NCBI GenBank assembly: GCA_017561825.1
Contig: JAFZBK010000012.1
Span: forward strand, 1 to 47,122
DNA: 47,122 bases
Source: Prevotella sp.
GTDB taxonomy: Bacteria > Bacteroidota > Bacteroidia > Bacteroidales > Bacteroidaceae
Reading direction: 5' to 3'
Shown: positions 7,043-38,800 of the stretch, in pieces
Numbering within the stretch: the stretch's first letter is position 1
Layout of the letters: each line of letters opens with the position of its first letter
The notes under the pieces: model-generated
Told to the model about the DNA's origin: nothing
The model's database searches: none
The model's input: only the letters and a program-made list of their open reading frames with translations
Translations under genes and position numbers: made by a program

Positions 7043-7070
7043 AACAAATAACAAACAACAAATCATAAAT
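7043..7070 (+). repeat. Heptamer array (AACAAAT type)
   Basis: Four 7-nt units in register: AACAAAT, AACAAAC, AACAAAT, CATAAAT. The array fills most of the 43-nt gap between the porin and aspA. It is one of nine arrays in the window with a 7-nt period. Confidence 0.6.
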
Positions 7071-7079
7071 TCTACCATT

Positions 7080-8492
7080 ATGTCAGAAAAGAAATTCCGC
7101 GTTGAGTCGGACCTTTTAGGTGAACTCAAAATTCCAGTAGATGCATACTACGGCGTACAGACACAGCGTGGTATCAACAACTACCATATCTCACGCAAGA
7201 CGATGTCAATGTATCCCGATTTCGTTATTGCCATCGCCTACGTGAAACTCGCTGCCGTGCAGACCAATCATACCCTTGGCGTTATCAACGACGAGATCTC
7301 AGGAGCTATCGCTCAGGCCTGCCGTGAAATCATCGACGGCAAGTTCCACGAAGACTTCCCCATCGATATGATGCAGGGCGGTGCAGGTACTTCTGTCAAC
7401 ATGAATGCCAACGAGGTGATTGCCAACCGTGCCCTCGAGATCATGGGCCACGAGAAAGGCGACTACCAATATTGCTACCCCAACGACCATTGTAATTGCG
7501 GACAGTCAACCAATGATGTATATCCAACCACCATCCGTCTTGCTCTAATCCGTATGAACAAGAGTCTGGTGGCAGCCCTCACGGGTCTTATCAGTGCCCT
7601 CCGCTACAAGGGCGAGGAGTTCAAGGATGTCATCAAGATGGGTCGTACCCAGCTGCAGGACGCTGTGCCTATGACCAGCGGACAGGAGTTCAACGCCTAT
7701 GCCAACAACCTCGAAGAGGAAATCCTCAACCTCGAGCGCAACGTGAAGCTCCTCCATGAGATCAACATGGGAGGTACCGCTATCGGTACCGGACTGAACG
7801 CCGTTCCCGGCTTTGCCAAGCTTTGTGCTGCCAACCTCAGCAAGCTCACCGGTGAAGCATTCGTATCTGCCAGCGACCTCGTAGAAGCCACGCCTGATAC
7901 AGGAGCATACGTCAGCTACTCATCAGCTTTGAAGCGCTTGGCCGTGAAACTCTCCAAGATCTGTAACGACCTCCGTCTGATGGCCTCTGGTCCCCGTTGC
8001 GGTCTCAACGAGATCAACCTTCCTCCGAAGGCTCCCGGCTCAAGCATCATGCCCGGTAAGGTGAATCCCGTCATCCCCGAGGTTGTCAACCAGGTCTGCT
8101 TCAAGGTTATCGGCAACGACGCCACCGTATGCTTTGCTGCTGAAGCCGGACAGCTGCAGTTGAACGTGATGGAGCCCGTCATCACCGAGTCGCTCATCGA
8201 GAGCCTATGGTGGCTGAAGAACGCCATTGAGACACTGACAGAAGAGTGTATCCTCGGTATCACGGTCAACAAAGAACGTTGTTATGAAATGGTGAAGAAC
8301 TCTATTGGCATCGTTACTGCCTTGAATCCGTACATCGGTTATAAGACCAGTACGAAGGTGGCCAAGGAGGCTCTGGAGACAAACCGTTCTGTTTATGATA
8401 TTGTTCTGGAGAAAGGACTGATGACGCAAGAGAAACTTGACGAAGCCCTCGATCCCAAGAACATGCTTAACTCTCACAAGATTGTGAAGTAG
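7080..8492 (+). CDS. aspA: Aspartate ammonia-lyase (aspartase)
   Basis: A 470-residue enzyme that splits L-aspartate into fumarate and ammonia. The fumarase/aspartase signature GSSIMPGKVN is at residues 320-329, with the catalytic serine in this loop. The N-terminus (RVESDLLGELKIPVDAYYGVQT) is typical of aspartase and separates it from fumarase C. ATG 7080 is chosen over an upstream in-frame start inside the porin gene because it gives exactly the family N-terminus. It is the last gene of the dcuB-ansB-porin-aspA run, 43 nt behind the porin. The fumarate formed would feed fumarate reductase, with DcuB exporting succinate. A class II fumarase function is much less likely. Confidence 0.95.
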   Translation: MSEKKFRVESDLLGELKIPVDAYYGVQTQRGINNYHISRKTMSMYPDFVIAIAYVKLAAVQTNHTLGVINDEISGAIAQACREIIDGKFHEDFPIDMMQGGAGTSVNMNANEVIANRALEIMGHEKGDYQYCYPNDHCNCGQSTNDVYPTTIRLALIRMNKSLVAALTGLISALRYKGEEFKDVIKMGRTQLQDAVPMTSGQEFNAYANNLEEEILNLERNVKLLHEINMGGTAIGTGLNAVPGFAKLCAANLSKLTGEAFVSASDLVEATPDTGAYVSYSSALKRLAVKLSKICNDLRLMASGPRCGLNEINLPPKAPGSSIMPGKVNPVIPEVVNQVCFKVIGNDATVCFAAEAGQLQLNVMEPVITESLIESLWWLKNAIETLTEECILGITVNKERCYEMVKNSIGIVTALNPYIGYKTSTKVAKEALETNRSVYDIVLEKGLMTQEKLDEALDPKNMLNSHKIVK

Positions 8493-8637
8493 TATCAAGG
8501 AGGTTTGTCGATTTTTAAGTGTGTGGCCGCTGCTGTTTTACAATCTGTATTACGGCGACGGCTACAACTCTTTCTAAAAAAGTGCTATTCCCCGAAAATT
8601 AAAGCGCGGTAATGGCACAAGGTTCCTCATTTTTTTG

Positions 8638-8645
8638 TATATTTG
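8638..8645 (+). promoter_or_regulatory. -7 promoter box upstream of the phosphatase/kinase gene
   Basis: TATATTTG matches TAnnTTTG. The predicted transcription start near 8652 leaves about 24 nt to the TTG start at 8676, which supports that start. No clear -33 TTTG is visible. The rest of the 183-bp gap (8493-8675) holds nothing else I recognise. Confidence 0.5.
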
Positions 8646-8675
8646 TACGCAGAATAAAACCTAAACAATTACACC

Positions 8676-10295
8676 TTGGTAGAAGAACCGAATTTCGATT
8701 ATAAATACGACCTGGCATACCAAAAGTCGTTCGCTGCAAGGCTCAGCCTCAGGATCATGGGCATTGCGGCAGTGGTCTTTTTGGTGGCTGTGATCTTGTT
8801 CTTCTATTTCACTGGTGACAGCATGTCCTTGCCGCTAACCCACCAAATCGTGAAATACGGCACAGTGGTGTTTATCGTAGGACTGGCATTGTTGTTTATC
8901 TTCTGTACCATTGCCATCTACCGAATGGTGAAGCCGTTGAAACTATTCGCCGATTCAGCAGTGAATATTGCCGAAGGAAACCTGGATACCCCTTTACCCG
9001 AGATCAAGTCGCAAGATGAGTTACTGCACTTGCGCAACTCCTTCGAGTATATGCAGAAATCGCTTAAGCAGTATATCAAGGAACTGGAAACAACTTCCGA
9101 AAGTAAGATGCGACTCCAAAGTGAGCTCACCATTGCCCACGACATCCAGATGGGCATGATTCCCACCATCTTCCCTGAACGTGACGATCTCGACCTGTTT
9201 GCTTCCATGACACCAGCCAAAGAGGTGGGAGGCGACCTTTACGACTTCATCATCGAAGGTGATGAGCTCTTCTTCATCATCGGCGACGTGGCAGGTAAGG
9301 GCGTGCCTGCTTCGCTATATATGGCAGTCACCCGCACCCTTTTCCGCAACCTCGCAGGAAACTACCAGAGTGCTGCTAACATCATGCGCGAGATGAACCA
9401 TGCCATTGCCTCTGCCAACGACTCGCTGGTCTTTGTCACTGCCTTTGTGGGGGTGCTCGATCTCAAGACGCAGCACCTAACCTATTGCAATGCTGCCCAT
9501 AACGCCCCCGTCATGTTGTCGGCTGACGGACATTGCCAGCTGCTGGAGGTGGACACCAACCTGCCCATTGGCATCGAGGATCACTACAACTACGAGGAAC
9601 GGCAGATCCCGTTCCCCGAGAACGCTGCGCTGTTGCTCTATACCGACGGTCTGACAGAGGCCATGTATATCGCCAACGACGGCAGTCGACGACTCTTTGG
9701 CGAAGAACGCATGCTGCATGATCTGGAGAAGAACAAGGCAGCCTCGGCCATCGAGGTCATCGACTACCTGAAACAGCATGTTGCCGTCTTTGCCGACGGA
9801 ACAGAACAGAACGACGACCTCACGCTGATGTTCCTACGTCACGGCACATCACAGAAGAAAGCTTCAACGGCACCGCGACGCATCATCATGAAGAACGAAG
9901 TCTCAGAGGTGAGTCGCATGCGGGGATTCTTCCAATCCGTTTGTCGCGAGCACAACATTGATGAGGACCTCTTCAAGACAGTCAACCTCGCCCTCGAGGA
10001 ATGGGTGGTCAACGTCATCAACTATGCGTACCCCAAGGGCATACGAGGTCATGTGGAACTCACGGCCGAAGTGGCGAACGAGGTGTTGACACTGATGGTC
10101 AAGGACCATGGCATACCTTTCGATCCTACCCAGAAGGAAGATGCCGACATCAATGCCGAGCTCAACGAGCGTCAGATAGGCGGACTGGGAATCTATCTCG
10201 TGAAGTCCATTATGGACACGATGACTTACCAGCGTACCTCCGATGGCTACAATGTCGTTACGCTAACAAAGAATCTATCAACGAACCACAATTAA
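8676..10295 (+). CDS. Membrane PP2C phosphatase fused to RsbW-like kinase
   Basis: A 539-residue regulator. Two membrane helices (about 27-46 and 59-80) flank only about 12 external residues. A HAMP domain follows (80-132). A SpoIIE/RsbU-type PP2C domain covers about 165-390, with metal motifs EVGGDLYD, IGDVAGKGVPA, LYTDGLTEA and NDDLTLM. The last 140 residues are a GHKL kinase of the RsbW type, with N-box ALEEWVVNVINYAYP, DHGIPFDP and GGLGIYLVKS. One chain therefore holds both activities that normally oppose each other on a STAS protein. In-frame TAA at 8655 rules out longer forms, and no ATG exists before codon 28, so TTG 8676 is used. SLC13 and STAS genes follow at 22 and 34 nt; the STAS protein is the likely substrate. 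No sigma factor is adjacent. Confidence 0.88.
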   Translation: MVEEPNFDYKYDLAYQKSFAARLSLRIMGIAAVVFLVAVILFFYFTGDSMSLPLTHQIVKYGTVVFIVGLALLFIFCTIAIYRMVKPLKLFADSAVNIAEGNLDTPLPEIKSQDELLHLRNSFEYMQKSLKQYIKELETTSESKMRLQSELTIAHDIQMGMIPTIFPERDDLDLFASMTPAKEVGGDLYDFIIEGDELFFIIGDVAGKGVPASLYMAVTRTLFRNLAGNYQSAANIMREMNHAIASANDSLVFVTAFVGVLDLKTQHLTYCNAAHNAPVMLSADGHCQLLEVDTNLPIGIEDHYNYEERQIPFPENAALLLYTDGLTEAMYIANDGSRRLFGEERMLHDLEKNKAASAIEVIDYLKQHVAVFADGTEQNDDLTLMFLRHGTSQKKASTAPRRIIMKNEVSEVSRMRGFFQSVCREHNIDEDLFKTVNLALEEWVVNVINYAYPKGIRGHVELTAEVANEVLTLMVKDHGIPFDPTQKEDADINAELNERQIGGLGIYLVKSIMDTMTYQRTSDGYNVVTLTKNLSTNHN

Positions 10296-10317
10296 CCTAT
10301 GTAATATAATAACGCTT

Positions 10318-12114
10318 ATGGGATCAATCGTCTTTTTAGGTTTTAACCTCTACGCGTGGATTACCATCGTCACCGTTCTGTCGATGTTCACCGTATTGCT
10401 GTTCACCAAGCTGCGGGCCGACCTGGTGTTCCTTGGTGCCATTGCCGTCCTCTTTGTAACAGGTGTACTTGATGCCAAAGAGGCATTCTCCGGATTCAGC
10501 AGTACCTCGGTAGTGATTATTGGTGTGCTCTTTGTCGTTGTTGCCGGACTCACCCATACGGGTGTGCTCCAGTGGATCGTCAAACATCTCTTAGGACAGC
10601 CCAAGAGCTATTCGAAGGCTGTTATCCGACTGATGCTTCCCGTGGCTGCCCTCAGTTCGTTCCTCAGCAACACCACCGTGGTGGCGCTCTTCGTGGGCAT
10701 CGTCAAGATGTGGTCGAAGAAACTGAATATCTCACCGTCCAAGTTACTGATACCACTGAGCTACGCCTCGGGCATGGGTGGTGTGTGTACGCTGATCGGT
10801 ACACCGCCGAACCTTATCATCTCTGGTCTCTATGCCGACCATACTGGCACTGCCATGAACGTGCTGACCACCACCATCCCAGGTCTGTTCTGTCTCTGCA
10901 TCGGCGTACTTTCCATCATCGCCATGCGCAAGCTGCTGCCCGACCGTCAGGCTCCTGAGACAGCCTTCGAATCCACGTCCGACTACACAGTAGAACTGCT
11001 CGTGCCCTCTGATAATGGTCACATCGGAGAGACCATCGCCGAAGCAGGACTCACGAACGTGAATGGCGGTAGTCTGATTGAGATTGTCCATTTTGACGAC
11101 ATCATTACCCCAGTGCCCGACGACGAAATCATCATGGGTGGCGACCGCCTGATCTTTGCCGGACAGATTGACGAGATACTCGAATTGAAGAAGAGTCATG
11201 GGCTGGTGAATGCCGACCATCATATCTTCACGATGGACGAGGTGGGTAAAGACCGTCAGCTGCAAACAGCATACGTCACTTTCGGTTCCAGCCTCATCAA
11301 CACCACGATTGGCGATTCCACCTTTGAGCATGACAACAACATGATTCTCGTTGCTGTAGCCCGTCGCGGCAAGCGTATCAACGAGTCACCGCGAAAGGTG
11401 GTGCTTCAGGCTGGTGATACATTGCTTTTCGAGTGCCCACCTCATGTGAACATCCACACGGAACGTCTCGCTTCGCAGCTGCAGTTCTTCGATAATGCCC
11501 AGGTGCCGAATATCGGCAAGAAGACACTCGTATCCACCACCATCATGATACTCATGGTAGTGCTCTCGGCCCTCAACATCATTCCTTTGTTGCAATGTGC
11601 CTTCCTCGCTGCCATAGCCATGCTCCTGTTCCGCTGCTGCAATGTTGATCAGGCCATGAAGGCCATCAATTGGGAGATTCTCATGGTGTTTGCCGGATCA
11701 GTAGTGTTAGGCATCGCCATTCAGAAGACAGGTATTGCCGAACGTCTTGCCTTTGGCATCCTCGATGTCTGTGGCACCAACCCCATCGTGGTGATGGCAG
11801 CCATCTGCTTCGTAGGAACGTTCATTACCGAGTTTATCTCCAATACCGCAGCAGGTGCCATGTTCTTCCCCATTATGTACGAGGCGGCCGAAAAACTGGG
11901 CTACGAGCCCTACCCCTTCCTCATCGCCTTGATGGTCAGTGTAAGCTCCAGCTTCGCCACCCCTATCGGCTCGCCCACGCACATGTTGGTATATGGTCCT
12001 GGCGGCTACCGATTCAGCGACTTCATGCGCATCGGTCTGTTGATGAACCTCATCATCCTCGCTGCCAACATCTTCATTGTGAATATCATCTATCCACTCA
12101 CCCCGCTGCAATAA
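10318..12114 (+). CDS. SLC13-family permease with RCK_C (TrkA-C) domains
   Basis: A 598-residue inner-membrane transporter. Membrane segments flank a central cytoplasmic part at about 215-385. That part reads as two RCK_C/TrkA-C domains (ELLVPSDNGHIGETIAEAGL and DDEIIMGGDRLIFAG in the first; a second copy ends near RKVVLQAGDTLLFECP). The transport motifs SNTTVVALF, SYASGMGGVCTLIGTPPNLI and a repeated SFATPIGSPTHMLVYGPGGY are typical of the divalent anion/sodium symporter group. Substrates in this family include sulfate and dicarboxylates and cannot be told from the sequence. It lies between the phosphatase/kinase fusion and the STAS gene, so its expression or activity may be tied to that switch. 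RCK_C domains bind small ligands in other transporters. Confidence 0.88.
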   Translation: MGSIVFLGFNLYAWITIVTVLSMFTVLLFTKLRADLVFLGAIAVLFVTGVLDAKEAFSGFSSTSVVIIGVLFVVVAGLTHTGVLQWIVKHLLGQPKSYSKAVIRLMLPVAALSSFLSNTTVVALFVGIVKMWSKKLNISPSKLLIPLSYASGMGGVCTLIGTPPNLIISGLYADHTGTAMNVLTTTIPGLFCLCIGVLSIIAMRKLLPDRQAPETAFESTSDYTVELLVPSDNGHIGETIAEAGLTNVNGGSLIEIVHFDDIITPVPDDEIIMGGDRLIFAGQIDEILELKKSHGLVNADHHIFTMDEVGKDRQLQTAYVTFGSSLINTTIGDSTFEHDNNMILVAVARRGKRINESPRKVVLQAGDTLLFECPPHVNIHTERLASQLQFFDNAQVPNIGKKTLVSTTIMILMVVLSALNIIPLLQCAFLAAIAMLLFRCCNVDQAMKAINWEILMVFAGSVVLGIAIQKTGIAERLAFGILDVCGTNPIVVMAAICFVGTFITEFISNTAAGAMFFPIMYEAAEKLGYEPYPFLIALMVSVSSSFATPIGSPTHMLVYGPGGYRFSDFMRIGLLMNLIILAANIFIVNIIYPLTPLQ

Positions 12115-12148
12115 TTATCATTGAACAACCATTGAAAACTGTAATAAC

Positions 12149-12454
12149 ATGAATATCGAAATCAAAGAACTGAACGGTTCCTATTTGGGAATCCTTACAG
12201 GATGGATCGACACCGCCGTAGCAACGCAATTCCTCGAGGACCTGAAGCCTCTGATGAATAATGCCGACAAGTCTATAGAACTGAATTGTGCACAATTGGA
12301 ATATATCTGTAGTCTGGGACTTCGCGGACTGCTCCAGTTGAAGAAGGAGAGTGCCGCAAAGGGTGGAAGACTGGTGCTAACCCATGTTGAGGGAGAAGTA
12401 CTCAAGATTCTCACCATGACAGGTTTCATTAAACTATTTGATATTCGTCGATAA
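12149..12454 (+). CDS. STAS-domain anti-sigma-factor antagonist-like protein
   Basis: A 101-residue protein made of a single STAS domain of the SpoIIAA/RsbV type. The phosphorylation loop reads YICSLGLRGLL, placing the expected phospho-serine at Ser55 where family members have S-[AS]-G-L-R. It starts 34 nt after the SLC13 gene and is followed by the AlkD-like gene after 11 nt. The natural partner is the PP2C/kinase fusion encoded two genes upstream, which would phosphorylate and dephosphorylate Ser55. What the STAS protein then controls is not visible; no cognate sigma factor is in the window. Confidence 0.9.
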   Translation: MNIEIKELNGSYLGILTGWIDTAVATQFLEDLKPLMNNADKSIELNCAQLEYICSLGLRGLLQLKKESAAKGGRLVLTHVEGEVLKILTMTGFIKLFDIRR

Positions 12455-12465
12455 TCGTGCATTTG

Positions 12466-13248: not shown

Positions 13249-13283
13249 TACCAAATGTCATGAAGCCCAGCATGCCCTTGTAA

Positions 13284-15834: not shown

Positions 15835-17319
15835 ATGTGGAAGAGTGTTTTTCTGATCATAACAACAATGATGATGATGAATTGTAACGGACAAACAAGG
15901 GAGCCGGTGGTAAGACCTGCTACCCAGGCGGGGAGTTTCTATGAGCGTGACCCACGGATATTGAGCAAGGAGGTGGACAGTCTGCTTGCCCGTCATGCTT
16001 CAGACGGTACCTACGAAAACGTGGCGGCACTGATTGTGCCCCATGCAGGTTATTATTTCTCTGGCAATGTGGCCGCCTCGGCTTACATGACACTCGATCC
16101 TAAGAAGTCGTATAAACGAATCTTCCTGTTAGGACCCAGTCACCACGAATGGCTCAACGGTGCATCAGTAAACAGCGAGGTGGATGAGTATGCCACGCCA
16201 TTGGGTAAGGTGAAGGTTGATCGTGAGACAGCCCGTCAGTTGATAGAAGCAGACAGTGTCTTCTCCTACTTCGAAGAGGCTCACGACCGCGAGCATTGCT
16301 TAGAGGTACAGTTGCCTTTCCTGCAGAGATTTTTCACTGTTCACTCTTCACTATACCCTAAAGAAGTGCCACCCATTGTACCCATCATCATCTCCACCAA
16401 CGACTATACCAAACTGAAGAGGATGGCGGAGGTGCTGAAACCCTGGTTCAATGATGAAAACCTCTTTATTATCAGCAGCGACTTCTCCCATTATCCTTCT
16501 TATGCCGATGCTTGCAAGGTGGATGCCAAGACCGGTGAGGCGGTGGCCAGCGGTGACGTGAAGAAGTTCATTACTACCATCGAGGACAATGCCCGTAGCG
16601 GTATTCGCAACCTGGCCACGAGTGCCTGTGGGGGATTCCCCATCATCACCTTGATGCTCATGCTCGATAGTCAGTATCAGGTAAAGCACCTGCTGTATCA
16701 GAACTCAGGCGATATCGACAACCATGATCCGAACCGCGTGGTGGGCTATCATTCTTTTGCCGTGATACGAGGTGGGGAAAAGGAGTTTTCTTTAACCGAT
16801 GAGGAGAAGCGCGTCCTGAAAGAGATAGCCTACAAGAGCATCAAAGACTCTCTCGATGGCAAGAGAATTTCAATTTTCAATTCTCAATTTTCAATTCTTA
16901 ATCAGAAGTGTGGTGCTTTTGTCTCCCTTCATAAGCATGGTCATCTGCGTGGCTGCATCGGTCATTTCGGCGAGGATGTGCCGTTGCATGAGGTTGTAGC
17001 TGAAATGGCCCGTTCTGCTGCCTTCGGGGATCCCCGCTTCCAGCCCGTCACTCGTGACGAACTGGATAATCTCGATATTGAAATCTCCGTGCTCACCCCT
17101 ATGCGGCGCATACAAAGTCTCGATGAGTTCCAACTGCACAAGCATGGTATCTACATCCGCAAGGGCTATCGCAGTGGCACCTTCCTGCCTCAGGTGTCCG
17201 ACGAGGTAAACTGGACAAAGGAGGAATTCGTAGGACATTGCTCGCAGGATAAGGCAGGATTAGGTTGGGATGGCTGGCGCGACGCGGAGTTGTATGTATA
17301 TGAAGCAATCGTGTTTTAA
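15835..17319 (+). CDS. Exported fusion of MEMO (AmmeMemoRadiSam B) and AMMECR1 (A)
   Basis: A 494-residue fusion. Residues 1-20 form a signal peptide ending near a cysteine (MMNCNGQ), suggesting a lipoprotein, though the lipobox is poor. The MEMO domain (about 30-320) keeps the metal-site residues seen in the family: IVPHAGYYFSG, GPSHHEW, ISSDFSHY and the cysteine of SACGGFP. The AMMECR1 domain (about 358-494) keeps HLRGCIGHF. Together with the radical SAM gene downstream this is the AmmeMemoRadiSam trio, whose chemistry is unknown. The join (residues 346-355, SIFNSQFSIL) is encoded by a heptamer array, and another array (residues 167-173, FTVHSSL region) lies inside the MEMO part. ATG 15835 is chosen because it starts the signal peptide; a TTG at 15811 would prepend eight residues. 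Confidence 0.88.
   Translation: MWKSVFLIITTMMMMNCNGQTREPVVRPATQAGSFYERDPRILSKEVDSLLARHASDGTYENVAALIVPHAGYYFSGNVAASAYMTLDPKKSYKRIFLLGPSHHEWLNGASVNSEVDEYATPLGKVKVDRETARQLIEADSVFSYFEEAHDREHCLEVQLPFLQRFFTVHSSLYPKEVPPIVPIIISTNDYTKLKRMAEVLKPWFNDENLFIISSDFSHYPSYADACKVDAKTGEAVASGDVKKFITTIEDNARSGIRNLATSACGGFPIITLMLMLDSQYQVKHLLYQNSGDIDNHDPNRVVGYHSFAVIRGGEKEFSLTDEEKRVLKEIAYKSIKDSLDGKRISIFNSQFSILNQKCGAFVSLHKHGHLRGCIGHFGEDVPLHEVVAEMARSAAFGDPRFQPVTRDELDNLDIEISVLTPMRRIQSLDEFQLHKHGIYIRKGYRSGTFLPQVSDEVNWTKEEFVGHCSQDKAGLGWDGWRDAELYVYEAIVF
16333..16353 (+). repeat. Heptamer array inside the MEMO coding region
   Basis: Three units, TTCACTG, TTCACTC, TTCACTA, translated as part of a loop between the conserved EVQLPFLQ and IVPIIIS segments, where most MEMO proteins are shorter. 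21 nt keeps the frame. Confidence 0.65.
16870..16897 (+). repeat. Heptamer array forming the MEMO-AMMECR1 linker
   Basis: Four units, TCAATTT, TCAATTC, TCAATTT, TCAATTC, followed by a decayed TTAATCA. It is translated as the linker between the two domains. Positions 16886-16902 are the exact reverse complement of 17365-17381 in the intergenic region downstream. Confidence 0.72.
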
Positions 17320-17354
17320 TTAAGAATTAAGAGTTAAGAGTTAAGAATTAAGTC
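17320..17354 (+). repeat. Heptamer array (TTAAGAR type) between the fusion gene and the radical SAM gene
   Basis: Five units in perfect register: TTAAGAA, TTAAGAG, TTAAGAG, TTAAGAA, TTAAGTC. It begins one base after the stop codon of the fusion gene. A decayed extension (17362-17384) carries the next gene's start codon. Confidence 0.75.
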
Positions 17355-17372
17355 AACGAAGTTAATTAAGAA

Positions 17373-18245
17373 TTGAAAATTAACGAGTGTAGATATTATC
17401 AGCAATTGGAGGATGGAACGGTGGAATGCCAGCTCTGTCCGCACCACTGTCGTATGACTAATGGCAAGATGGGAAGATGTCGCAGTAGGCGGAACCATGA
17501 TGGTGTGCTTATCAGCGAGGTCTATGCAAAGCCCTGTGCCTTGGCTATTGACCCCATCGAGAAGAAGCCGCTCTATCATTTCCATCCTGGCACCACCTGT
17601 CTGTCGATTGCCTGCACGGGTTGTAACTTCCGTTGTCTGAACTGTCAGAACCATGATATCTCACAAGCATCACCTGAAGAGGTGGCACATGATGAATTGA
17701 CACCTGAGCAGGTGGTGAGTCTTTGTCTGAAGCATCATTGTCCCGGCATCGCCTACACCTATACCGAGCCACTCACCTATATAGAATATGTGATTGATAC
17801 AGCCCGTTTAGCACATGAGAAAGGATTGTGGAACATCCTTGTCACGGCAGGCTATGTGTGTCAGGAACCGCTATCTGACCTACTCCCCTATCTGGATGCT
17901 GCCAATATCGACCTGAAATCCTTCACCGATGATATCTACCAGCGCATCAGCGGAGGTCGTCTATCCGTAGTGCTCGACACCATCCTCGCCATGAAGAAAG
18001 CTGGGGTGTGGATAGAACTGACCAACCTCGTGATTCCCGGTATCAATGATGATATGGAGATGATCCGTAGGATATGTAGATGGATGGTGGATAACGGAAT
18101 GAAGGAAACACCCCTCCATTTCAGTCGTTTCTTCCCTCGTTACCGCATGCAGGACATTCCGCCTACACCTATCCAGACGTTACGTGCCGCCCATGAGATC
18201 GCCCTTGACGAAGGACTGCGGCATGTCTATTTGGGCAATGTCTGA
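17373..18245 (+). CDS. amrS: AmmeMemoRadiSam system radical SAM enzyme
   Basis: A 290-residue cytoplasmic enzyme. It has the N-terminal cysteine cluster CQLCPHHC (about 19-26), then the radical SAM [4Fe-4S] motif CNFRCLNC (CxxxCxxC, about 83-90), and the AIDPIEKKPLYHF and YTEPLTYIEYV segments seen in AmrS/pyruvate-formate-lyase-activase-like proteins. An in-frame TAA at 17367 and the lack of any ATG before the conserved region force a TTG start at 17373. That codon lies inside the heptamer-repeat-derived sequence. It is adjacent to the exported MEMO-AMMECR1 fusion (53-nt gap). The product of the trio is not known. The enzyme is cytoplasmic while its partner carries an export signal, which is unexplained. 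Confidence 0.92.
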   Translation: MKINECRYYQQLEDGTVECQLCPHHCRMTNGKMGRCRSRRNHDGVLISEVYAKPCALAIDPIEKKPLYHFHPGTTCLSIACTGCNFRCLNCQNHDISQASPEEVAHDELTPEQVVSLCLKHHCPGIAYTYTEPLTYIEYVIDTARLAHEKGLWNILVTAGYVCQEPLSDLLPYLDAANIDLKSFTDDIYQRISGGRLSVVLDTILAMKKAGVWIELTNLVIPGINDDMEMIRRICRWMVDNGMKETPLHFSRFFPRYRMQDIPPTPIQTLRAAHEIALDEGLRHVYLGNV

Positions 18246-21390: not shown

Positions 21391-21428
21391 AACTGAGAAC
21401 TGAGAATTCACACTCTCAGCTCTCAGTT
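21391..21428. repeat. Heptamer-derived inverted repeat between aqpZ and the GH9 gene
   Basis: AACTGAG, AACTGAG on one arm and CTCTCAG, CTCTCAG on the other fold into a stem of 15 pairs in 17 (arms 21391-21407 and 21412-21428, 4-nt loop). No T-run follows on either strand, so it is not a standard terminator. Confidence 0.65.
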
Positions 21429-22204: not shown

Positions 22205-22245
22205 TTTTTTGTCAAAAAAAGGGGGAAAACACGAGACTTAAGGGC

Positions 22246-22272
22246 AAAAAAAATGGAGTACCGCTGTACTCC
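22246..22272 (-). terminator. Intrinsic terminator downstream of the PEP/pyruvate-binding protein gene
   Basis: A 7-bp stem GGAGTAC/GTACTCC (22255-22261, 22266-22272) with a 4-nt loop. It is followed on the minus strand by a run of T (22252-22246), about 110 nt after the stop codon at 22382. Confidence 0.6.
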
Positions 22273-22298
22273 TAATTGTTAACCTTAAATCTAATACT

Positions 22299-22352
22299 AT
22301 GAAAAACACACTGCAAAAATATGAATTTATTCCATACGAAACAAATAATTAA
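22299..22352 (+). other. 17-codon mini-ORF in the aqpZ upstream region
   Basis: ATG to TAA encodes MKNTLQKYEFIPYETNN. It is preceded by TAACCTTAAATCTAATACT, which looks like a leader just upstream of a start. A short stem (AAGCA 22351-22355, TGCTT 22362-22366) followed by TTTCTTT overlaps the stop. No promoter box is seen. It could be a leader peptide, a relic of a lost gene start, or chance. Confidence 0.2.
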
Positions 22353-31608: not shown

Positions 31609-31629
31609 TGAGAGGTGAAAGCTGAGAGG
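31609..31629 (+). repeat. Heptamer array downstream of mdh
   Basis: Three units, TGAGAGG, TGAAAGC, TGAGAGG, starting six bases after the mdh stop codon. Confidence 0.5.
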
Positions 31630-31654
31630 TATTATTACCTTCAGGTTTAATCAG

Positions 31655-31718
31655 GGTATGTCAAAAAGGGGGTTATAAAGTGTTCACTTTGAGAACTGCC
31701 TTTCGACATATCCTTTTT
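31655..31718 (+). terminator. Nested inverted repeat with T-run directly before the ECF sigma gene
   Basis: An outer stem of about 8 bp (GGTATGTC 31655-31662 with GACATATC 31705-31712, one mismatch) encloses an inner stem AAAGTG/CACTTT (31677-31682, 31685-31690). TTTTT (31714-31718) follows, one base before ATG 31720. It may be the mdh terminator or an attenuator-like control of the sigma gene. Confidence 0.45.
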
Positions 31719-31719
31719 C

Positions 31720-32244: not shown

Positions 32245-32299
32245 AAAAAAAGAGAAATGGAATGGGGGGAAAACCAGTTGTTTTCGTCATAGATGTGTT

Positions 32300-35065
32300 A
32301 TGATGAAAAAAAGAATGAAAAGATTGTTGTTTGTAACAATGCTGATTCTGTTGCCTCTTAGTGTGAATGCCCAGCGTACCACACTGAAGCAACAGATGGA
32401 TCGACTCAAACAGGAACAGAAGGTGAACTTTGTCTATGATAGTTCACTAAACGTGGATCATGTCTATCAAGGACAGGCGCTGGAAGGAAAGTCGCTGAGA
32501 GAAGCCCTGCAACTACTCTTTCATGGCACTGGTATTGAATGGAGTGTAAAAGGAAACTATGTAACACTTCGTCAGAAGTCGGTTGTTCACACGGCACCTA
32601 CTCCCAAGGAGAAGGTCATTCAAAGACACACGCTGAGTGGTTATGTACGTGACAAGAGTGGTGAGAGTCTCATCAGTGCTACCATTCTGTGTACGGCCGT
32701 TTCCGGTTCTTTGTCATCCGACCAGAAAAAGAGTCATGCAGTCACAACCACCAATGCCTACGGCTTCTACAGTATAACCCTTCCTGAAGGCGAGTATGAG
32801 TTACAGGCTTCCTACTTAGGCTTTTCAGAAGGACGTAAGACGGTAAAGCTGAAAAAAGACTGTCGTGAGGACTTCCTGCTCGAAGAGCATAACCTACTGC
32901 AGGAGGTGGTGGTAACGGGAAACATGAACTCACCTGTTCTCACTACACAAACAGGAAAGAAAACACTTTCCCGCAACGACTTGAACACAGAGTTCGCCCT
33001 ACTCTCTTCCCCTGATCTCATTAAAACACTCCAGCGCACATCAGGAGTGAGCGAAGGAATCGAAGTGGCCTCTGGCATGTATGTACATGGTGGCAACGAT
33101 GATGAGAACCTGTTCTTACTTGACGGAACCTCGATGTACACCATCAACCATACCCTTGGACTCTTCTCTGCCTTCAATACCGATGTGGTAAAGAATGTGG
33201 ATTTCTACAAGAGCGGGTTCCCTGCCCGTTATGGTGGAAGACTCTCGTCAGTGACTGATGTACGCACAAACGACGGAGACATGCGCCACACTCATGGTAG
33301 TTACAGCATCGGCCTCATCGACGGAAGGTTCCAGATTGAAGGTCCTATCAAGACCAAGAAGGAAAAGGAGAAGGTGACAAACGGACAATTAGCCCACTAC
33401 AGCACCAGCTACAACTTCGGCCTGCGACGCTCATGGCTGGATGTCATTACGGAACCCATATTCTTCATCATGAACAAGAAAGATGACAAGACGAAGTTCC
33501 ATTACTATCTGCATGACCTGAACGGAAAGATCACTCATGTGTTCAATGACCGCAGTAAGGCCTATTTCAGCATCTATTCCAGTAAGGACATGATGAATTC
33601 CACTTACTATTGGGATGAGAAAGTGCAGGGTGAAGATGCCGCAGAACGTCATAATATCGAAGAAGGAAAGAATTACCTGACGTGGGGAAACCTGAACATG
33701 GCACTCAACTGGAACTACCAGCTACGTCCTAACCTCTTTGCCAATTTCAGTGCCGTCTATACCCATAACCGCAGCATCTATGAATACAAAGAAGGATGGC
33801 GTTACGGACAGGCAGGAAGCATGTCGGTTGACCATATGAATCACACCTACCGCTCTACTGTTGATGATGGAACATTGCGTGCTGACTTCGACTTCCGTCC
33901 TAACAGCAAAAACCATATCCGCTTCGGTGGTGACATGACTTATCATAACTTCCGTCCGCAAACACAGAGTCTGTTCGGTATCTACGGACAGGAAGATGTC
34001 TCCGTCGATTCAACAACCATCAACAGCAAGAATCATCTGAAGGCTCAGGAGATGAACCTTTATGCTGAAGACGAGATGATCCTGAACAATCACTGGAGTA
34101 TGAATGTCGGCGTGCATGCCACACTTTTCCATGTAAGCGGCAAGAGCTTCTTCCTGCTCGACCCCCGTACGGCCGTGAAGTATCAGGTAAATGACAAGAC
34201 CTCGCTCAAGATGTCGTTTACAGGAATGACACAAACCATCCACCGCATCAGCAGCACCTATCTGAGTATGCCTACCGACTACTGGGTTCCCACCACTGCT
34301 AATCTGAAGCCCATGCGCTCCTACCAGACAGCCGCAGGAATCTATTCGCAGATCAATCGTCGTTGGTTCGCCTCCCTTGAGGGTTATTACAAAGTCACCA
34401 ACCATATCCTGCAATACACCAAATACAAGAGTCTGACACCGCCCGTCAAATACTGGGAGAATTTCGTCATTGACGGGAAAGGACGTTTCTACGGTATTGA
34501 GGCAGATGTACGCTATCACGACAGTCGTTACGACGTTCAGGCCGCCTACACCCTATCATGGAACAAGCGGAAATTTGACGAGTTCTATCCACATTGGTTC
34601 TACGATAAGTTCGACAACCGACATAAGTTCAACATCACAGGCAGGATGAAAATAGGAAAGAATGCTGAGATGTGCGCAGGCTGGACCTATCATACCGGCT
34701 ATCGCATGACCGTTGCCACGCAATTTGCAGCAATGCCCAATCTACCCGACGGACATGCTGAGGTGTCGCAACAAATGTACACAACCCAAGAGGGTTACAT
34801 GCCACTCTATATCAACTACGGTGCGAATTACGATACACCCAACAACCTCACCCTGCCAGCCTACCACCGACTGGACCTGGGGTTCAATCTGCACCACATC
34901 ACCAAGGCAGGACATGAGCGTCTTTGGAATATCAGTATCTACAATGCCTATTGTCGTTTCAATGCCTTGTATGCAGAGATGAGCTACAGTCACAACAAAG
35001 TTTGTATGAAGGGAAAGGGATTTGTTCCTATCATCCCCACGGCAAGCTATACCATCAAATTCTAA
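32300..35065 (+). CDS. TonB-dependent receptor with STN signalling domain
   Basis: A 921-residue outer-membrane receptor. It has a signal peptide (MKRLLFVTMLILLPLSVNAQ within the first 26 residues), then an STN domain (about 30-95, LKQEQKVNFVYDSSLNV, SLREALQLLFHGTGIEW) of the kind that signals to FecR. A carboxypeptidase-like beta-sandwich (about 110-190, HTLSGYVRDKSGESLISATI), plug (about 200-320, LLSSPDLIKTLQRTSGVSEG, YVHGGNDDENLFLLDGT) and 22-strand barrel follow, ending in aromatic SYTIKF. ATG 32300 is used because it gives the signal peptide. The STN domain together with the adjacent sigma factor and FecR indicates trans-envelope signalling. No SusD is present; the DUF4249 lipoprotein is the likely surface partner. 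The substrate is unknown. Confidence 0.92.
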   Translation: MMKKRMKRLLFVTMLILLPLSVNAQRTTLKQQMDRLKQEQKVNFVYDSSLNVDHVYQGQALEGKSLREALQLLFHGTGIEWSVKGNYVTLRQKSVVHTAPTPKEKVIQRHTLSGYVRDKSGESLISATILCTAVSGSLSSDQKKSHAVTTTNAYGFYSITLPEGEYELQASYLGFSEGRKTVKLKKDCREDFLLEEHNLLQEVVVTGNMNSPVLTTQTGKKTLSRNDLNTEFALLSSPDLIKTLQRTSGVSEGIEVASGMYVHGGNDDENLFLLDGTSMYTINHTLGLFSAFNTDVVKNVDFYKSGFPARYGGRLSSVTDVRTNDGDMRHTHGSYSIGLIDGRFQIEGPIKTKKEKEKVTNGQLAHYSTSYNFGLRRSWLDVITEPIFFIMNKKDDKTKFHYYLHDLNGKITHVFNDRSKAYFSIYSSKDMMNSTYYWDEKVQGEDAAERHNIEEGKNYLTWGNLNMALNWNYQLRPNLFANFSAVYTHNRSIYEYKEGWRYGQAGSMSVDHMNHTYRSTVDDGTLRADFDFRPNSKNHIRFGGDMTYHNFRPQTQSLFGIYGQEDVSVDSTTINSKNHLKAQEMNLYAEDEMILNNHWSMNVGVHATLFHVSGKSFFLLDPRTAVKYQVNDKTSLKMSFTGMTQTIHRISSTYLSMPTDYWVPTTANLKPMRSYQTAAGIYSQINRRWFASLEGYYKVTNHILQYTKYKSLTPPVKYWENFVIDGKGRFYGIEADVRYHDSRYDVQAAYTLSWNKRKFDEFYPHWFYDKFDNRHKFNITGRMKIGKNAEMCAGWTYHTGYRMTVATQFAAMPNLPDGHAEVSQQMYTTQEGYMPLYINYGANYDTPNNLTLPAYHRLDLGFNLHHITKAGHERLWNISIYNAYCRFNALYAEMSYSHNKVCMKGKGFVPIIPTASYTIKF

Positions 35066-35078
35066 AACAAAGCAGTAT

Positions 35079-36071
35079 ATGAAAAGAAATCACATACAAA
35101 TACTCGCACTGATTGTCACCCTGATTTGCTGTGCATGCAGCAACGATGTGGGATTGGATGAACTGAGGTCAGATCCCAAACTGGTGCTTTATTGCTTCCC
35201 CAATGTGGACAACGACACCACCATCATCAGTCTGACTGCCAGCAGACCCATGTACCAAAACAATCTGATGGTTTCTGCCAATGACATGTATGGTGTCAGG
35301 GATGCTCATATCACTTATACAGTGAACGGTGAGAAGCATACCGTATTCTTTACAGAGGAGAAAACCGACCTGATGCCGCCCAGAAGCTATTATGTGACAG
35401 GACATCATCAAGTGGGCGACCATATCCGTATCGAAGCATCTGTTGATGGATTACCCAGTGTTCAGGCAGAGACCGTTATTCCTGACATGCCTTTCATCGA
35501 TGAAGTAAAAGATGTCATGATACATCGCGATAATCAGAAATTCAGACAGTTTCAGGTTACCATCGCCGACAATCCGGATACAAATGACTTCTACGCTGTC
35601 AGATTGGAAATGGAGAGTAGCAACAACTCCATTGTCACCGTCACAAATGCCACGATCAATACAGACGACGAGCCTGCGCTGAAAGCCGGAGGTAGTATTG
35701 ACGATCTCCTTGATGATGAAAACACCTTCTATGGTCAGTTTTATATCTTCAATGATGATACTTTCAATGATAACCGATATACGCTTCATCTAAACGTGAA
35801 CGAATATGATATCTTCCATGCAAACACGGACATGGACGATACAACAAGGAAAGTACATGTTAAACTGTATAAGATCACTCCTGAATATTTCCGGTTCATC
35901 AAGTCAATCAACGACCAGACCAACTATGAGCTGGGAGAATACGGACTGGCTCCTACTTCACCCACATTCAACCATGTTGATGGCGGTCTGGGCGTAATCG
36001 GAGGATTTAACATGACGGAACATGTAGTGACCATCACACAGAACAACTTTTCAGTTTCTAACGATAAATAA
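35079..36071 (+). CDS. DUF4249 lipoprotein
   Basis: A 330-residue lipoprotein. The signal peptide ends LICCACSND, with a lipobox cysteine near residue 20, and the mature part is a beta-rich DUF4249 domain. This family is very often encoded directly after TonB-dependent receptors in Bacteroidetes, as here (13 nt after the receptor stop). ATG 35079 is chosen because it gives the lipobox; the frame opens further upstream inside the receptor gene. It likely forms the surface lid or accessory of the receptor, in place of SusD. The function of DUF4249 is not established. Confidence 0.82.
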   Translation: MKRNHIQILALIVTLICCACSNDVGLDELRSDPKLVLYCFPNVDNDTTIISLTASRPMYQNNLMVSANDMYGVRDAHITYTVNGEKHTVFFTEEKTDLMPPRSYYVTGHHQVGDHIRIEASVDGLPSVQAETVIPDMPFIDEVKDVMIHRDNQKFRQFQVTIADNPDTNDFYAVRLEMESSNNSIVTVTNATINTDDEPALKAGGSIDDLLDDENTFYGQFYIFNDDTFNDNRYTLHLNVNEYDIFHANTDMDDTTRKVHVKLYKITPEYFRFIKSINDQTNYELGEYGLAPTSPTFNHVDGGLGVIGGFNMTEHVVTITQNNFSVSNDK

Positions 36072-36074
36072 GCT

Positions 36075-36893
36075 ATGAACGAGATGAATAACAAGAACCT
36101 GTCATTTGTGCTGAAATACTATCGGGAAGGCAAGCTCGATACAAAAAGAGCCATACAGAAAGTAAGGGAGCGAACCATGCTCTCCGATACCCGTATCATA
36201 CCCATACGACGTTGGATCGCCATTGCCGCCTCTCTGCTTCTTTTGTTGATTGCTGGTGCCACCTATTATTATATAGGGTATAATCCCGAGGTTGTATTGA
36301 CAGCCCATGAACAGCCACAACTGTTCATCCTTCCTGACCAGACTCATGTAACACTATCGTCGCATGCCACCTTATCCTACAAAAAGAAGGATGTCAGAAC
36401 AATGACACTGAAGGGTGATGCCTATTTCGAAGTCCAACATGATGAGCAGCATCCTTTCATCGTCAGGAACGATATGGCACAAGTACGCGTACTAGGAACG
36501 GGCTTCCAAGTGTCAGGCGGTCGTTCATCCCAAAAGCTCACTGAGGTATATGTCACCCATGGAAAGGTGGCATTCTCTTCTCCTTCAGACGAAGCACAGG
36601 GTGTCGTGCTGACTCAAGGGATGAAGGCCCAACTGGTCCAAGGAGAACATAAGCCACAACTGATTCCCGCAGGTAGCATCAACCAGGTGGCGTGGGCAAC
36701 AGGTAATTTCCACTTCGAGAACACACCGCTTACTGAGGTGATCAACGACCTGGAAACCTATTACCATGTCAAACTAACGGTCAGCTCAACGGAGAAAAGT
36801 CTGACTGGTGATTTCTCCACTGATAGTCTGGATGAGATTATCAGTCTGATTGAGCAGACCTTGGAGGTATCCATCGTCAAGAATAACCCCTAA
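36075..36893 (+). CDS. FecR-family anti-sigma factor
   Basis: A 272-residue inner-membrane regulator. It has a short cytoplasmic N-terminal part (about 1-43), one membrane helix (about 45-68, RRWIAIAASLLLLLIAGATY), then a periplasmic FecR domain (about 80-200, LPDQTHVTLSSHATLSY, GDAYFEVQHDEQHPFIV, VLGTGFQV) and a C-terminal DUF4974-type secretin-like domain (FHFENTPLTEVINDLETYYHV). It starts 3 nt after the DUF4249 stop. In most clusters FecR follows the sigma gene directly; here it is the fourth gene, so sigma and anti-sigma are separated by about 3.8 kb. The N-terminal cytoplasmic part is shorter than in many homologues. Confidence 0.88.
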   Translation: MNEMNNKNLSFVLKYYREGKLDTKRAIQKVRERTMLSDTRIIPIRRWIAIAASLLLLLIAGATYYYIGYNPEVVLTAHEQPQLFILPDQTHVTLSSHATLSYKKKDVRTMTLKGDAYFEVQHDEQHPFIVRNDMAQVRVLGTGFQVSGGRSSQKLTEVYVTHGKVAFSSPSDEAQGVVLTQGMKAQLVQGEHKPQLIPAGSINQVAWATGNFHFENTPLTEVINDLETYYHVKLTVSSTEKSLTGDFSTDSLDEIISLIEQTLEVSIVKNNP

Positions 36894-36958
36894 ACAGTGT
36901 TTCATAAGGAATCCGATGTTTTTTCTTCATTCCTTTCTTTTATCTGAAAGGAAAATAC

Positions 36959-36966
36959 TACCTTTG
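36959..36966 (+). promoter_or_regulatory. -7 box for the gamma-carbonic anhydrase gene
   Basis: TACCTTTG matches TAnnTTTG and lies 27 nt before ATG 36994. No good -33 match. Confidence 0.45.
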
Positions 36967-36993
36967 CAAGAAAGAAACAAAAGAAGAAAAGAT

Positions 36994-37500
36994 ATGGCAC
37001 TGATCAAGGAAGTGAACGGTCTTGCACCCAAATGGGGCAAGAACTGTTATTTTAGTGAGAACGCCACGATTGTGGGCGAAGTGGTGATGGGCGACGAGTG
37101 CTCGGTATGGTTCAATGCCGTTGTTCGCGGTGATGTGTGCCATATCCATATTGGTGACCGTACCAATGTGCAAGACGGGGCCGTGCTACATACCACCTAT
37201 CAGACTGGTCCGCTGCATATCGGCAGCGATGTCACCATCGGTCATAATGCCACCGTTCATGCCTGCACCATCCACGACCATGCTTTGATTGGCATGGGTA
37301 GCACATTGCTTGATCACTGTGAGATAGGCGAAGGGGCTATCGTGGCAGCGGGTGCCTTAGTAGTAGGAGGAACAAAAGTTGGTGCCGGAGAGATCTGGGG
37401 TGGCGTTCCTGCGAAGTTCATTAAGAAAACCCAACCTGGTCAAACCGATAATGCCGCACACTATGTAGCCTATATGGATTGGTATAGGGATAGAGAATAG
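36994..37500 (+). CDS. Gamma-carbonic anhydrase family protein
   Basis: A 168-residue left-handed beta-helix protein of the gamma-carbonic anhydrase/YrdA group. Hexapeptide repeats are visible throughout (VVMGDECSVWFNAVVRGDVCHIHIGDRTNVQDG). The zinc-type histidines are in AVLHTTYQ and in TIGHNATVHAC. Catalytic activity in this family varies and several members are inactive, so carbon dioxide hydration is only a family expectation. ATG 36994 follows a -7 box; the frame opens 144 nt earlier inside fecR and that extension has no homology. It converges with waaA with a single base between the two stop codons. Confidence 0.88.
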   Translation: MALIKEVNGLAPKWGKNCYFSENATIVGEVVMGDECSVWFNAVVRGDVCHIHIGDRTNVQDGAVLHTTYQTGPLHIGSDVTIGHNATVHACTIHDHALIGMGSTLLDHCEIGEGAIVAAGALVVGGTKVGAGEIWGGVPAKFIKKTQPGQTDNAAHYVAYMDWYRDRE

Positions 37501-37501
37501 T

Positions 37502-37522
37502 TCAACTATCAACTGTCAACTG
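37502..37522. repeat. Heptamer array carrying the waaA stop codon
   Basis: Three units, TCAACTA, TCAACTG, TCAACTG. On the minus strand they encode the last residues of WaaA (QLTVDS) and its TGA stop. The array starts two bases after the convergent carbonic anhydrase stop. Confidence 0.6.
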
Positions 37523-38800
37523 TCGTAAGACGACATCTGTGGCTCCAGCTTTCCCTTTGACATAACCACCTGCGACCTCACCTCGTTTGATGAGGGATGC
37601 AGGATCAGCAGTCAGTTCATCCATCTTGGCAGCAAACTCTTCATAGTTATGTATCTCTAAACCACCACCGTTCTTCTTCAGTTCCTGCGCTTCCTGGAAA
37701 CGTTCGTTGTTAGGACCGAAGAACACGGGGATGTCCCATACTGCCGCCTCGGGAAGATTATGGATTCCCACACCGAAGCCACCACCTACGTATGCCACCT
37801 GACCATAACGGTAGATGCTGCTCAGCAAACCGAAGCAGTTGATGATCAACACGTCAGCGTTTTGCAGCTTTGACCTTTCACCTTCGACCGAATCCCTTTG
37901 ACTTCCAGCCTCTGTATAGCGGATCACCTTGCGACCTTCAAGCAGTTTCTCTATTTGTTGCAAATGATCCTCGCCTATCACATGGGGAGCGATAATCAGT
38001 TTCCACTCAGGATGCTCGTTGAAGTACTTGATAAATATCTCTTCGTCGGGTAACCACGAAGAACCCGCCACAAACACCATCTCTTTGACGTTTTCTCTCT
38101 CATCTCTCATCTCTCCTCTCTCATCTTCCATCTTCAAGAACTTCTCCACCACGGGCAGTTGCTTGGCAGCCTCCTTGATCTGCAGTACGCGATCAAAACG
38201 TGTATCACCTGTAATCTCCACCTCAGAAATACCAATGCTGTTCAACAGTTCCTTGCTCTGCTCGTTCTGAACAAAAAACTTGGTGAAGCAACGCAGCACC
38301 CTTCCGTAGTTCTTGCCATACCAACGGAAGAACACCTGGTTGGGACGGAAGATGGAGCTGACGCTATAGGTAGGTACATTCCTATGCTTGAGGATATGCA
38401 GGAAGTTGTACCAGAACTCATACTTGATGAAGAAGGCCATGCAAGGACGGATCAGTCGGAGGAACCGCCGCGCATTGGTCACTGTATCAATCGGCATATA
38501 GCAGATGATGTCGGCTCCTTGGTAGTTCTTCCGCACCTCATAACCAGAGGGCGAATAGAACGTCAGCAGGATCTTGTAGTCGGGATGCTCCTCACGGAAA
38601 CGTTCCATGATAGGACGCCCCTGCTCAAACTCACCCAACGACGCAGCATGAAACCACACATACTGGGCATTGGGATCCACTTTCTCCTTCAAGATCCGGA
38701 AAGCATCCCGTTCTCCCCGCCACATCTTCCTCACCTTCTCGTTGAAGAGACTGGCAATGGCGATGCCCAATTGAATGGCATACATGATGATATTGTACAT
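37502..38800 (-). CDS. waaA: 3-deoxy-D-manno-octulosonic acid (Kdo) transferase
   Basis: A 432-residue inner-membrane-anchored glycosyltransferase that adds Kdo to lipid A precursor in LPS synthesis. It has an N-terminal hydrophobic anchor, FHAASLGEFEQGRPIM (about 50-65), the acceptor-binding glutamate in this stretch, IKYEFWYNFL, and GGGFGVGIHNLPEAAVWDIPVFFGPN in the donor domain. The last segment is the standard GT-B nucleotide-sugar site. Two heptamer arrays are translated within it (residues about 224-235 and 300-311), both at loops of the second domain, and a third forms the C-terminus. It is 4 nt downstream of gltX, so likely co-transcribed. Confidence 0.93.
   Translation of the reverse strand: MYNIIMYAIQLGIAIASLFNEKVRKMWRGERDAFRILKEKVDPNAQYVWFHAASLGEFEQGRPIMERFREEHPDYKILLTFYSPSGYEVRKNYQGADIICYMPIDTVTNARRFLRLIRPCMAFFIKYEFWYNFLHILKHRNVPTYSVSSIFRPNQVFFRWYGKNYGRVLRCFTKFFVQNEQSKELLNSIGISEVEITGDTRFDRVLQIKEAAKQLPVVEKFLKMEDERGEMRDERENVKEMVFVAGSSWLPDEEIFIKYFNEHPEWKLIIAPHVIGEDHLQQIEKLLEGRKVIRYTEAGSQRDSVEGERSKLQNADVLIINCFGLLSSIYRYGQVAYVGGGFGVGIHNLPEAAVWDIPVFFGPNNERFQEAQELKKNGGGLEIHNYEEFAAKMDELTADPASLIKRGEVAGGYVKGKAGATDVVLRQLTVDS
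37869..37903. repeat. Heptamer array inside waaA (second)
   Basis: Five units on the plus strand: TTTGACC, TTTCACC, TTCGACC, GAATCCC, TTTGACT. They encode the WaaA segment around residues 300-311 (SQRDSVEGERSK), which looks like an insertion before NADVLIINC. Confidence 0.6.
38097..38131. repeat. Heptamer array inside waaA (first)
   Basis: Five units on the plus strand: CTCTCAT, CTCTCAT, CTCTCCT, CTCTCAT, CTTCCAT. They encode a charged insertion (MEDERGEMRDER, residues about 224-235) at the boundary between the two WaaA domains, before the conserved FVAGSSW. Confidence 0.7.

Follow-up and report, generated by a model that had tools for sequence, protein, structure and literature searches.

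Heptanucleotide arrays in a Prevotella genome are probably arms and arm remnants of small S23/IVP elements

What produces short tandem arrays that keep a period of seven nucleotides (nt) while the repeated unit changes from one array to the next? The question is raised by a 47,122-nt stretch of DNA from Prevotella sp. (GenBank contig JAFZBK010000012.1, positions 1 to 47,122; hereafter the window), a single contig of a 2.98-Mb genome assembled in 69 contigs. A reading of this stretch from its sequence alone had listed nine such arrays, and had suggested slippage or a templating enzyme with a 7-nt step as their source. The observation of the arrays is real. Elsewhere in the genome, arrays of this kind lie as inverted pairs around genes of the S23/IVP family (PF05635, 23S_rRNA_IVP), and the arrays in general are probably the arms, and the leftovers of arms, of small S23/IVP elements.

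Under a uniform rule applied to the whole window (14 positions compared, with at least 12 matches) there are 0, 1, 6, 0 and 2 arrays at lags 5 to 9 respectively, the six at lag 7 starting at 7036, 16331, 16866, 17318, 37502 and 38093. The remainder of the genome was sampled as 20 segments of 20 kb from six other contigs. These 400 kb contain 57 arrays at lag 7, compared with 2, 3, 8 and 19 at lags 5, 6, 8 and 9, while one set of first-order random sequence gave none at lag 7. Positions relative to genes rest on a gene caller of our own making, by which the 63 arrays of window and sample divide into 24 that are intergenic, 21 that lie across a gene end and 18 inside genes. Codon bias or repetition in the encoded peptide was considered as the cause of the genic arrays and is rejected; 404 kb of called genes hold 21 lag-7 arrays, against 0.2 after shuffling of codon order and 0.8 after synonymous shuffling. 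Lag 9 is likewise elevated in called genes (18, against 5.0 and 9.6 in the corresponding shuffles). Neither of the two outcomes named beforehand as refuting the observation, a lack of lag-7 excess across the genome or arrays accounted for by codon bias, was obtained.

The unit had been described as free to change. It does differ between arrays, but the units have a common composition, KTGANRR. The trinucleotide TGA is present on one strand in 68-69% of array units compared with 24-29% of neighbouring 7-mers, and CG and GC steps are almost missing. TGA and TAA are enriched relative to controls, yet the coding arrays of the window carry the stop on the antisense strand; an origin of the units from stop codons was therefore dropped, and the excess is taken as a trait of composition. 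A common composition, together with the location of many arrays at gene ends, could be explained if the arrays were binding sites for a host regulator, on mRNA or DNA, kept for regulation, as has been suggested for the TAACTGA repeats of Beggiatoaceae. But the units and positions vary among relatives, both orientations are found, many arrays are intragenic and entire congeners lack them, and we regard this explanation as very improbable.

The PF05635 profile matches eight places in this genome, six of them above the cut-off, and none in 14 control genomes. All six genes above the cut-off lie between inverted, complementary heptamer arms that are approximately 405-495 nt apart, with six different units, and all six copies are located between long protein-coding frames. 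The two sub-threshold matches (scores of 7 and 11) lack such arms. Some inverted pairs of arrays are separated by about 60 nt and give strong folds (z-scores of -3.3 to -8.3 in the four tested); in others the approximately 370-430 nt between the arrays contain a reading frame that encodes a four-helix-bundle protein. One copy from the genus, at locus L117, matches PDB entry 2rld at 1.3e-40. The element that we envisage would consist of an IVP four-helix-bundle gene (i.e. about 120 residues) between inverted, complementary arms of short tandem repeats, the two arms being able to pair into one long hairpin, in the manner of the intervening sequence (IVS) of some 23S rRNA genes.

The inverted arms are specific to IVP genes. 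When the flanks of ordinary genes were compared, just 2 of 322 reached a score of at least 15, and both of these are IVP genes. The IVP loci themselves were best-scoring or hand-chosen, and so are a non-random set, and the threshold was fixed after a first look. In the first set 32 of 67 loci scored at least 15, with two sub-threshold loci and three cut by contig ends included. For the genus set of 92 these five were dropped and 60 loci were added from multicopy congeners; 70 of the 92 scored at least 15, and 82 at least 12. The left flank pairs with the right flank of the same locus in 66 of the 92, compared with 30 of 415 combinations between loci of equal period from other hosts. Pairing is also seen from the side of the arrays. 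An inverted partner scoring at least 15 within 700 nt was found for 10 of the 63 arrays in this genome, compared with 7 of 189 when neighbourhoods were swapped. The corresponding figures for 80 relatives are 21 of 162 and 11 of 486.

The units and short motifs of the arms recur at arrays that have no gene. The inner arm ends of groups of IVP loci carry motifs of the TATGATTA, GAWTACC, TTTGCTACCGC and AGACAAT types. Beside arrays of this genome the TATGATTA type was found 6 times (0.15 expected) and GAWTACC 4 times (0.6 expected); two of the sites are counted under both motifs and one is part of an IVP element. The motifs were picked after viewing the arms, and these counts therefore favour the element reading. 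None of the TTTGCTACCGC or AGACAAT types was found beside arrays of this genome. In relatives a TTTGCTWCCGC type occurs 8 times against 0.25 expected, in every case within or just 3′ of the gene encoding the fused Memo and AMMECR1 domains (Memo-AMMECR1). Among the solo arrays of this genome 38 of 59 match its own arms, while random sets of arms from other genomes were matched by 13.8 on average and by 31 at most. Hairpins made of arrays only, with the same end motifs, would be gene-less derivatives of the elements, and single arrays in which the units recur would be solo arms. We also note a 130-nt heptamer hairpin (L011 15635-15764, equivalent to L135 775-902) with TTATGATTA at its inner end, which is in frame within an alpha-amylase-like reading frame.

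The repeat step is not always seven. A flank period could be assigned in 77 of the 92 genus loci, being 7 in 44, 8 in 21, 9 in 3, 10 in 6, 11 in 1 and 12 in 2, and two or three periods are carried together by 13 of the 27 genomes with labelled loci. All six elements of the present genome have a step of 7. On a tree of the IVP proteins (made by a quick method from few columns, with many unresolved forks) the period label undergoes 10 changes, compared with a mean of 29.7 when shuffled; none of 200 shuffles was as low, and the host label undergoes 64 changes. Periods 7 and 8 both cluster strongly, with 3 changes against 25.1 and 6 against 18.5 on shuffling. An earlier set of 62 proteins (30 from outside the genus, 32 labelled) gave 6 changes against 13.5. 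The step and the IVP protein are co-inherited. A fixed 7-nt step of a host polymerase is not supported, since steps of 7 to 12 occur within one genus and mostly track the lineage of the S23/IVP protein, and the arms of IVP loci lack the host-set, gene-independent step of slippage repeats.

The IVP protein may itself set the step. It might do so if one repeat unit were bound per step, so that the step reflects the engagement of the repeats by the IVP oligomer, or alternatively through an IVP-guided copying by which complementary arms are made anew wherever an element lies. Lineages tend to retain their own repeat step together with a short inner-end motif of the arms; the unit sequence turns over, with both arms changing together.

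Within the genus the load of arrays depends upon IVP. Eight congeners with no IVP match (407 kb) have 4, 9, 6, 5, 15, 6 and 6 arrays at lags 5 to 11, with no peak at lag 7, while 14 congeners with at least four matches (1040 kb) have 7, 18, 111, 30, 41, 12 and 9. Across 24 genomes the density of lag-7 arrays rises with the count of period-7 IVPs observed in them (rho 0.57, p 0.004); at lag 9 there is no correlation (rho 0.07).

These observations bear upon neutral slippage, by which the host polymerase would prefer a step of about 7 nt and inverted copies would arise from template switching in quasi-palindromes. Arrays do crowd permissive sites (intergenic DNA, stop codons and protein linkers), their load does not track IVP number outside the genus, and according to PMC4679880, which quotes Mrazek 2007, most genomes rich in repeats have heptanucleotides as their most frequent class and a 7-nt contact of the polymerase has been proposed. 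Against this, there are several steps per genome that mostly follow the IVP lineage, the lag-7 peak is missing from the eight IVP-free congeners, the inverted arms are IVP-specific and the end motifs recur next to arrays. Slippage by the host polymerase is probably not the source of the arrays, and we consider the explanation as a whole to be quite unlikely.

Comparison of orthologous sites reveals the turnover of arrays and elements. The array at 16331 is an insertion in the Memo domain, the corresponding gap in seven orthologues from the genus being 24 nt in six and 21 nt in one. At the site of the 17318 array the next gene in many relatives starts right at the Memo-AMMECR1 stop codon. In the Memo-AMMECR1 linker (the 16866 site) many relatives bear arrays with different units, as judged by eye. 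The 38093 array is an in-frame insertion in the linker of a Kdo-transferase, and 23 of 29 orthologues are shorter by at least six codons; by eye, this linker has heptamer arrays in the present genome and two relatives, with three different units. The 7-nt period recurs at one permissive place with unrelated units. A constant period with a changing unit had been proposed from the sequence alone, and this holds also at orthologous places, namely in these two linkers and upstream of recA.

Upstream of recA, related IVP genes (59-65% identical to the one here) are found in this genome and three other species, with different arms. These pair with their own partners with scores of 30, 28, 13 and 19, and in cross pairs with scores of 7-15. 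A fifth species has an IVP gene of the other clade at the site, and 25 of 30 loci have no IVP match, one of these holding an 8-mer hairpin. An IVP element also lies between araD and araA in this genome. The gap could be read in 21 of 29 relatives, with no IVP match in any; 17 of these gaps are 38-170 nt and four are 184-489 nt in length. Sites free of the element exist in relatives. The elements may be mobile and their arms may be copied. Element-free sites were also sought by blastn of 16 hairpins among the loci fetched. Paired flank matches were obtained for five, of which three were the hairpins' own loci again; L124 gave one match, and L073 gave 71, located at the Memo-AMMECR1 boundary.

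Some further observations were made at these two sites. The present genome has a 12-bp inverted copy of the final bases of araD after the end of that gene (L199, by eye), and in two relatives the araD-araA gap contains inverted 9-mer-like arrays of ACGAATT (L220 and L226, by eye). In locus L132 an in-frame AAGAGGC array (peptide KKQEARSKKQEARGEKQE; 220-275) encodes part of the N-terminal region of a protein resembling a dehydrogenase; its inverted partner (3047-3102) lies at a distance of 2.8 kb, on the far side of recA. It is possible that these form a larger, nested pair.

A number of results weigh against the arrays being derived from S23/IVP elements. The profile search found no IVP gene within the window. 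Most arrays have no close inverted partner. Of the 111 lag-7 arrays counted in the IVP-rich group, 57 come from this one genome, and four of these 57 are IVP arms. Lag-7 density is not significantly related to the total number of IVP matches (rho 0.33, p 0.12), nor is lag 8 correlated with period-8 IVPs (rho 0.19). One congener with a single IVP of period 8 (G061) has 10 lag-7 arrays in 100 kb, and none was present in the 20 kb sampled from each of three IVP-rich genomes. Outside the genus, ten Bacteroidota genomes have 3 lag-7 arrays in 400 kb when 13 of 14 matches are required, compared with 34 in 400 kb here, and six of the ten have 5 to 14 IVP matches; arms are often weak there, with 9 of 30 IVP loci from the phylum scoring at least 15. 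Period 10 is unclustered on the protein tree (6 changes for 6 rows), and the agreement between period and lineage could be plain co-inheritance, because the arms are in physical linkage with the gene. Upstream of recA the left flank of G060 scores 14 with the right flank of G006 and 13 with its own. No transposition was seen, and when araD-araA and recA sites that carry the element were compared by eye with those that lack it, no target-site duplication was recognised. A general hairpin around the AMMECR1 segment is striking in a few species, but was found in 5 of 81 species, compared with 23 of 959 pairs after swapping, and is rejected.

Several of these points could be accommodated if the association of S23/IVP genes with inverted arms were real but the solo arrays, including those of the window, were independent microsatellites with a common bias of composition. 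Most solo arrays indeed have neither end motif nor partner, and the arrays of G061 and their scarcity in IVP-rich genomes outside the genus fit this explanation. It does not account for the units that solo arrays have in common with the resident arms, nor for the difference in lag-7 load between IVP-free and IVP-rich congeners, and we judge it unlikely. Descent of the arrays from S23/IVP elements is the reading that we prefer, with the qualification that the presence of IVP may be needed for a heavy load of solo arrays, yet insufficient for it.

Heptanucleotide repeats are classically associated with filamentous cyanobacteria, where they are named STRR. The comparison with these, made in the sequence-only reading, proved relevant. 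On plasmids, tblastn detected relatives of IVP in 16 records, 15 of them cyanobacterial and one from Gemmatirosa; leaving out one near-duplicate, 15 loci were analysed (14 cyanobacterial and the Gemmatirosa). Arms score at least 12 in 14 of the 15 and at least 15 in 11, and for the cyanobacterial loci alone in 13 and 10 of 14. The best period is 7 in 13 loci, all of them cyanobacterial, and 8 in two. Other genes in two 49-kb plasmid stretches scored at least 12 in 4 of 79 cases and at least 15 in 1. STRR units are like the present ones in being 7-nt tandem repeats of many sequences, which on the cyanobacterial plasmids examined flank S23 genes as inverted arms, and both the tandem arrays (in the window and genome sample) and the association with S23 genes are found here. 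The repeats long known from cyanobacteria may be explained by this arrangement. In a search of the literature that was not exhaustive we found no paper naming an S23 gene as the centre of the cyanobacterial repeats.

At three loci on cyanobacterial plasmids S23/IVP elements lie within cas operons (L435 and L441, between cas6 and cas4; L438, between cas10 and a cmr3-family gene). A 23S rRNA IVP is listed in a CRISPR figure of a survey (PMC10910872), and such elements may explain that listing.

The closest known structure is the IVS of 23S rRNA. According to PMC4990558 the Coxiella IVS is bounded by inverted repeats, and the start codon of its S23p gene is preceded by tandem heptamers, two to three in number and variable between strains; the paper also states that S23/IVP proteins are of unknown function. 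The S23/IVP gene lies inside a hairpin formed by the terminal inverted repeats, about 430 nt in total. The elements described here have an S23p/IVP frame and terminal inverted repeats capable of forming a stem. They differ in lying between protein genes, and in being multicopy with arms of tandem repeats that vary by copy. They are IVS-like in build, but we do not class them as IVSs because they are outside 23S rRNA, to which the strict definition is limited. In our non-exhaustive search no general link between heptamers and S23 was found, the Coxiella paper alone, in its part available, having both. Long heptanucleotide simple sequences and TAACTGA repeats are also 7-nt tandem arrays, with several units in some genomes; they differ in that slippage or regulation has been invoked for them, and the available part of PMC4679880, one indirect repeat aside, mentions neither inverted arms nor S23 genes. 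That paper names Xanthomonas campestris and Burkholderia as rich in repeats of 5-11 nt, and PMC4990558 mentions an S23 structure from Xanthomonas.

Miniature inverted-repeat transposable elements (MITEs) and foldback elements are multicopy hairpins with inverted ends, in which an internal gene may or may not be present. The elements here are alike in all these respects. Unlike those, their end sequence varies by copy at constant period, and neither a target-site duplication was recognised nor a transposase seen. According to PMC10053308 the IVP family is related to Avd, the accessory protein of diversity-generating retroelements. The proteins are homologous four-helix bundles, and four phage matches at 26% identity include three that are annotated as Avd. 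The difference is that the genome's one reverse-transcriptase match is on another contig; no search for template or variable repeats was made. Templating by a reverse transcriptase, one of the mechanisms put forward earlier, finds little support and is improbable, though less so in view of the relation to Avd; the single RVT_1 match of the genome sits close to the end of a contig on which no IVP was matched.

Bacterial heptanucleotide repeats have so far been ascribed to slippage or regulation, and here meet S23/IVP proteins in one structure in at least two phyla. This offers a candidate cause for the repeats, the step of which tends to go with the protein, and the arms in turn become a candidate substrate of the protein. 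It is conceivable, if doubtful, that S23/IVP is the core of a widespread and so far unrecognised class of mobile hairpins in Bacteroidota, Cyanobacteria and beyond, in which the protein, as a four-helix-bundle ring, sets the step of the arms; the 23S rRNA IVS would be one landing place, and the heptanucleotide repeats of cyanobacteria and other bacteria largely debris. Some caution in annotation follows, in that in-frame repeats of seven amino acids in conserved enzymes, and IVP genes in cas operons, may be footprints of elements rather than parts of these systems.

We return to the window itself, the features of which are collected in Table 1. Six of the nine arrays originally listed are clear. 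The feature at 21391-21428 is a heptamer hairpin (folding z-score of -3.59), that at 31609 is weak and that at 37869 is unsupported. By our own gene calls four of these six are coding, one of them taking in the stop codon, and the other two overlap stop codons. The window arrays are most readily seen as solo arms, together with one hairpin, that descend from S23/IVP elements.

Table 1. Period-7 features of the window. Fractions in the last column are matches at lag 7, with the start position of the comparison where it differs from that of the feature.
Feature	Positions	Context or structure	Lag-7 matches
Solo heptamer array (AAATAAC)	7036-7062	From last base of porin stop codon to 18 nt before lyase start	17/21 (at 7043)
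Solo heptamer array (TTCACTG)	16331-16354	In frame, within Memo domain	12/14 (at 16333)
Heptamer array (TCAATTY)	16866-16898	In frame, Memo-AMMECR1 linker	18/21 (at 16870)
Heptamer array (TTAAGAR)	17318-17352	Begins within Memo-AMMECR1 stop codon	24/28 (at 17320)
Inverted partner of 16866-16898 array	17364-17381	17/18 matched; the two bracket AMMECR1 coding part	
Heptamer hairpin	21391-21428	AACTGAG direct copies (2.3), then inverted copies; loop 8 nt	21/31
Weak array, three units	31609-31629	3′ of lactate/malate dehydrogenase gene	10/14, below threshold
Heptamer array (TCAACTG)	37502-37524	Kdo-transferase C-terminus and stop codon, gene on minus strand	13/14
Candidate array, unsupported	37869-37903		14/28
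Heptamer array (CTCTCAT)	38093-38126	In frame, Kdo-transferase interdomain linker	24/28 (at 38097)

A second family of repeats was encountered in the course of this analysis. It consists of short palindromes in tandem at a spacing of about 22 nt (or 11), at times as inverted pairs of arrays, with examples at L028 10517-10597, L026 1205-1266, L019 696-755, and L118 1000-1048 and 1368-1432. A lag-22 signal is present in 11 of 14 sampled genomes of the genus. Lastly, positions 22243-22309 on the minus strand of the window match the Rfam family of Bacteroidetes FopS paralogous sRNAs.

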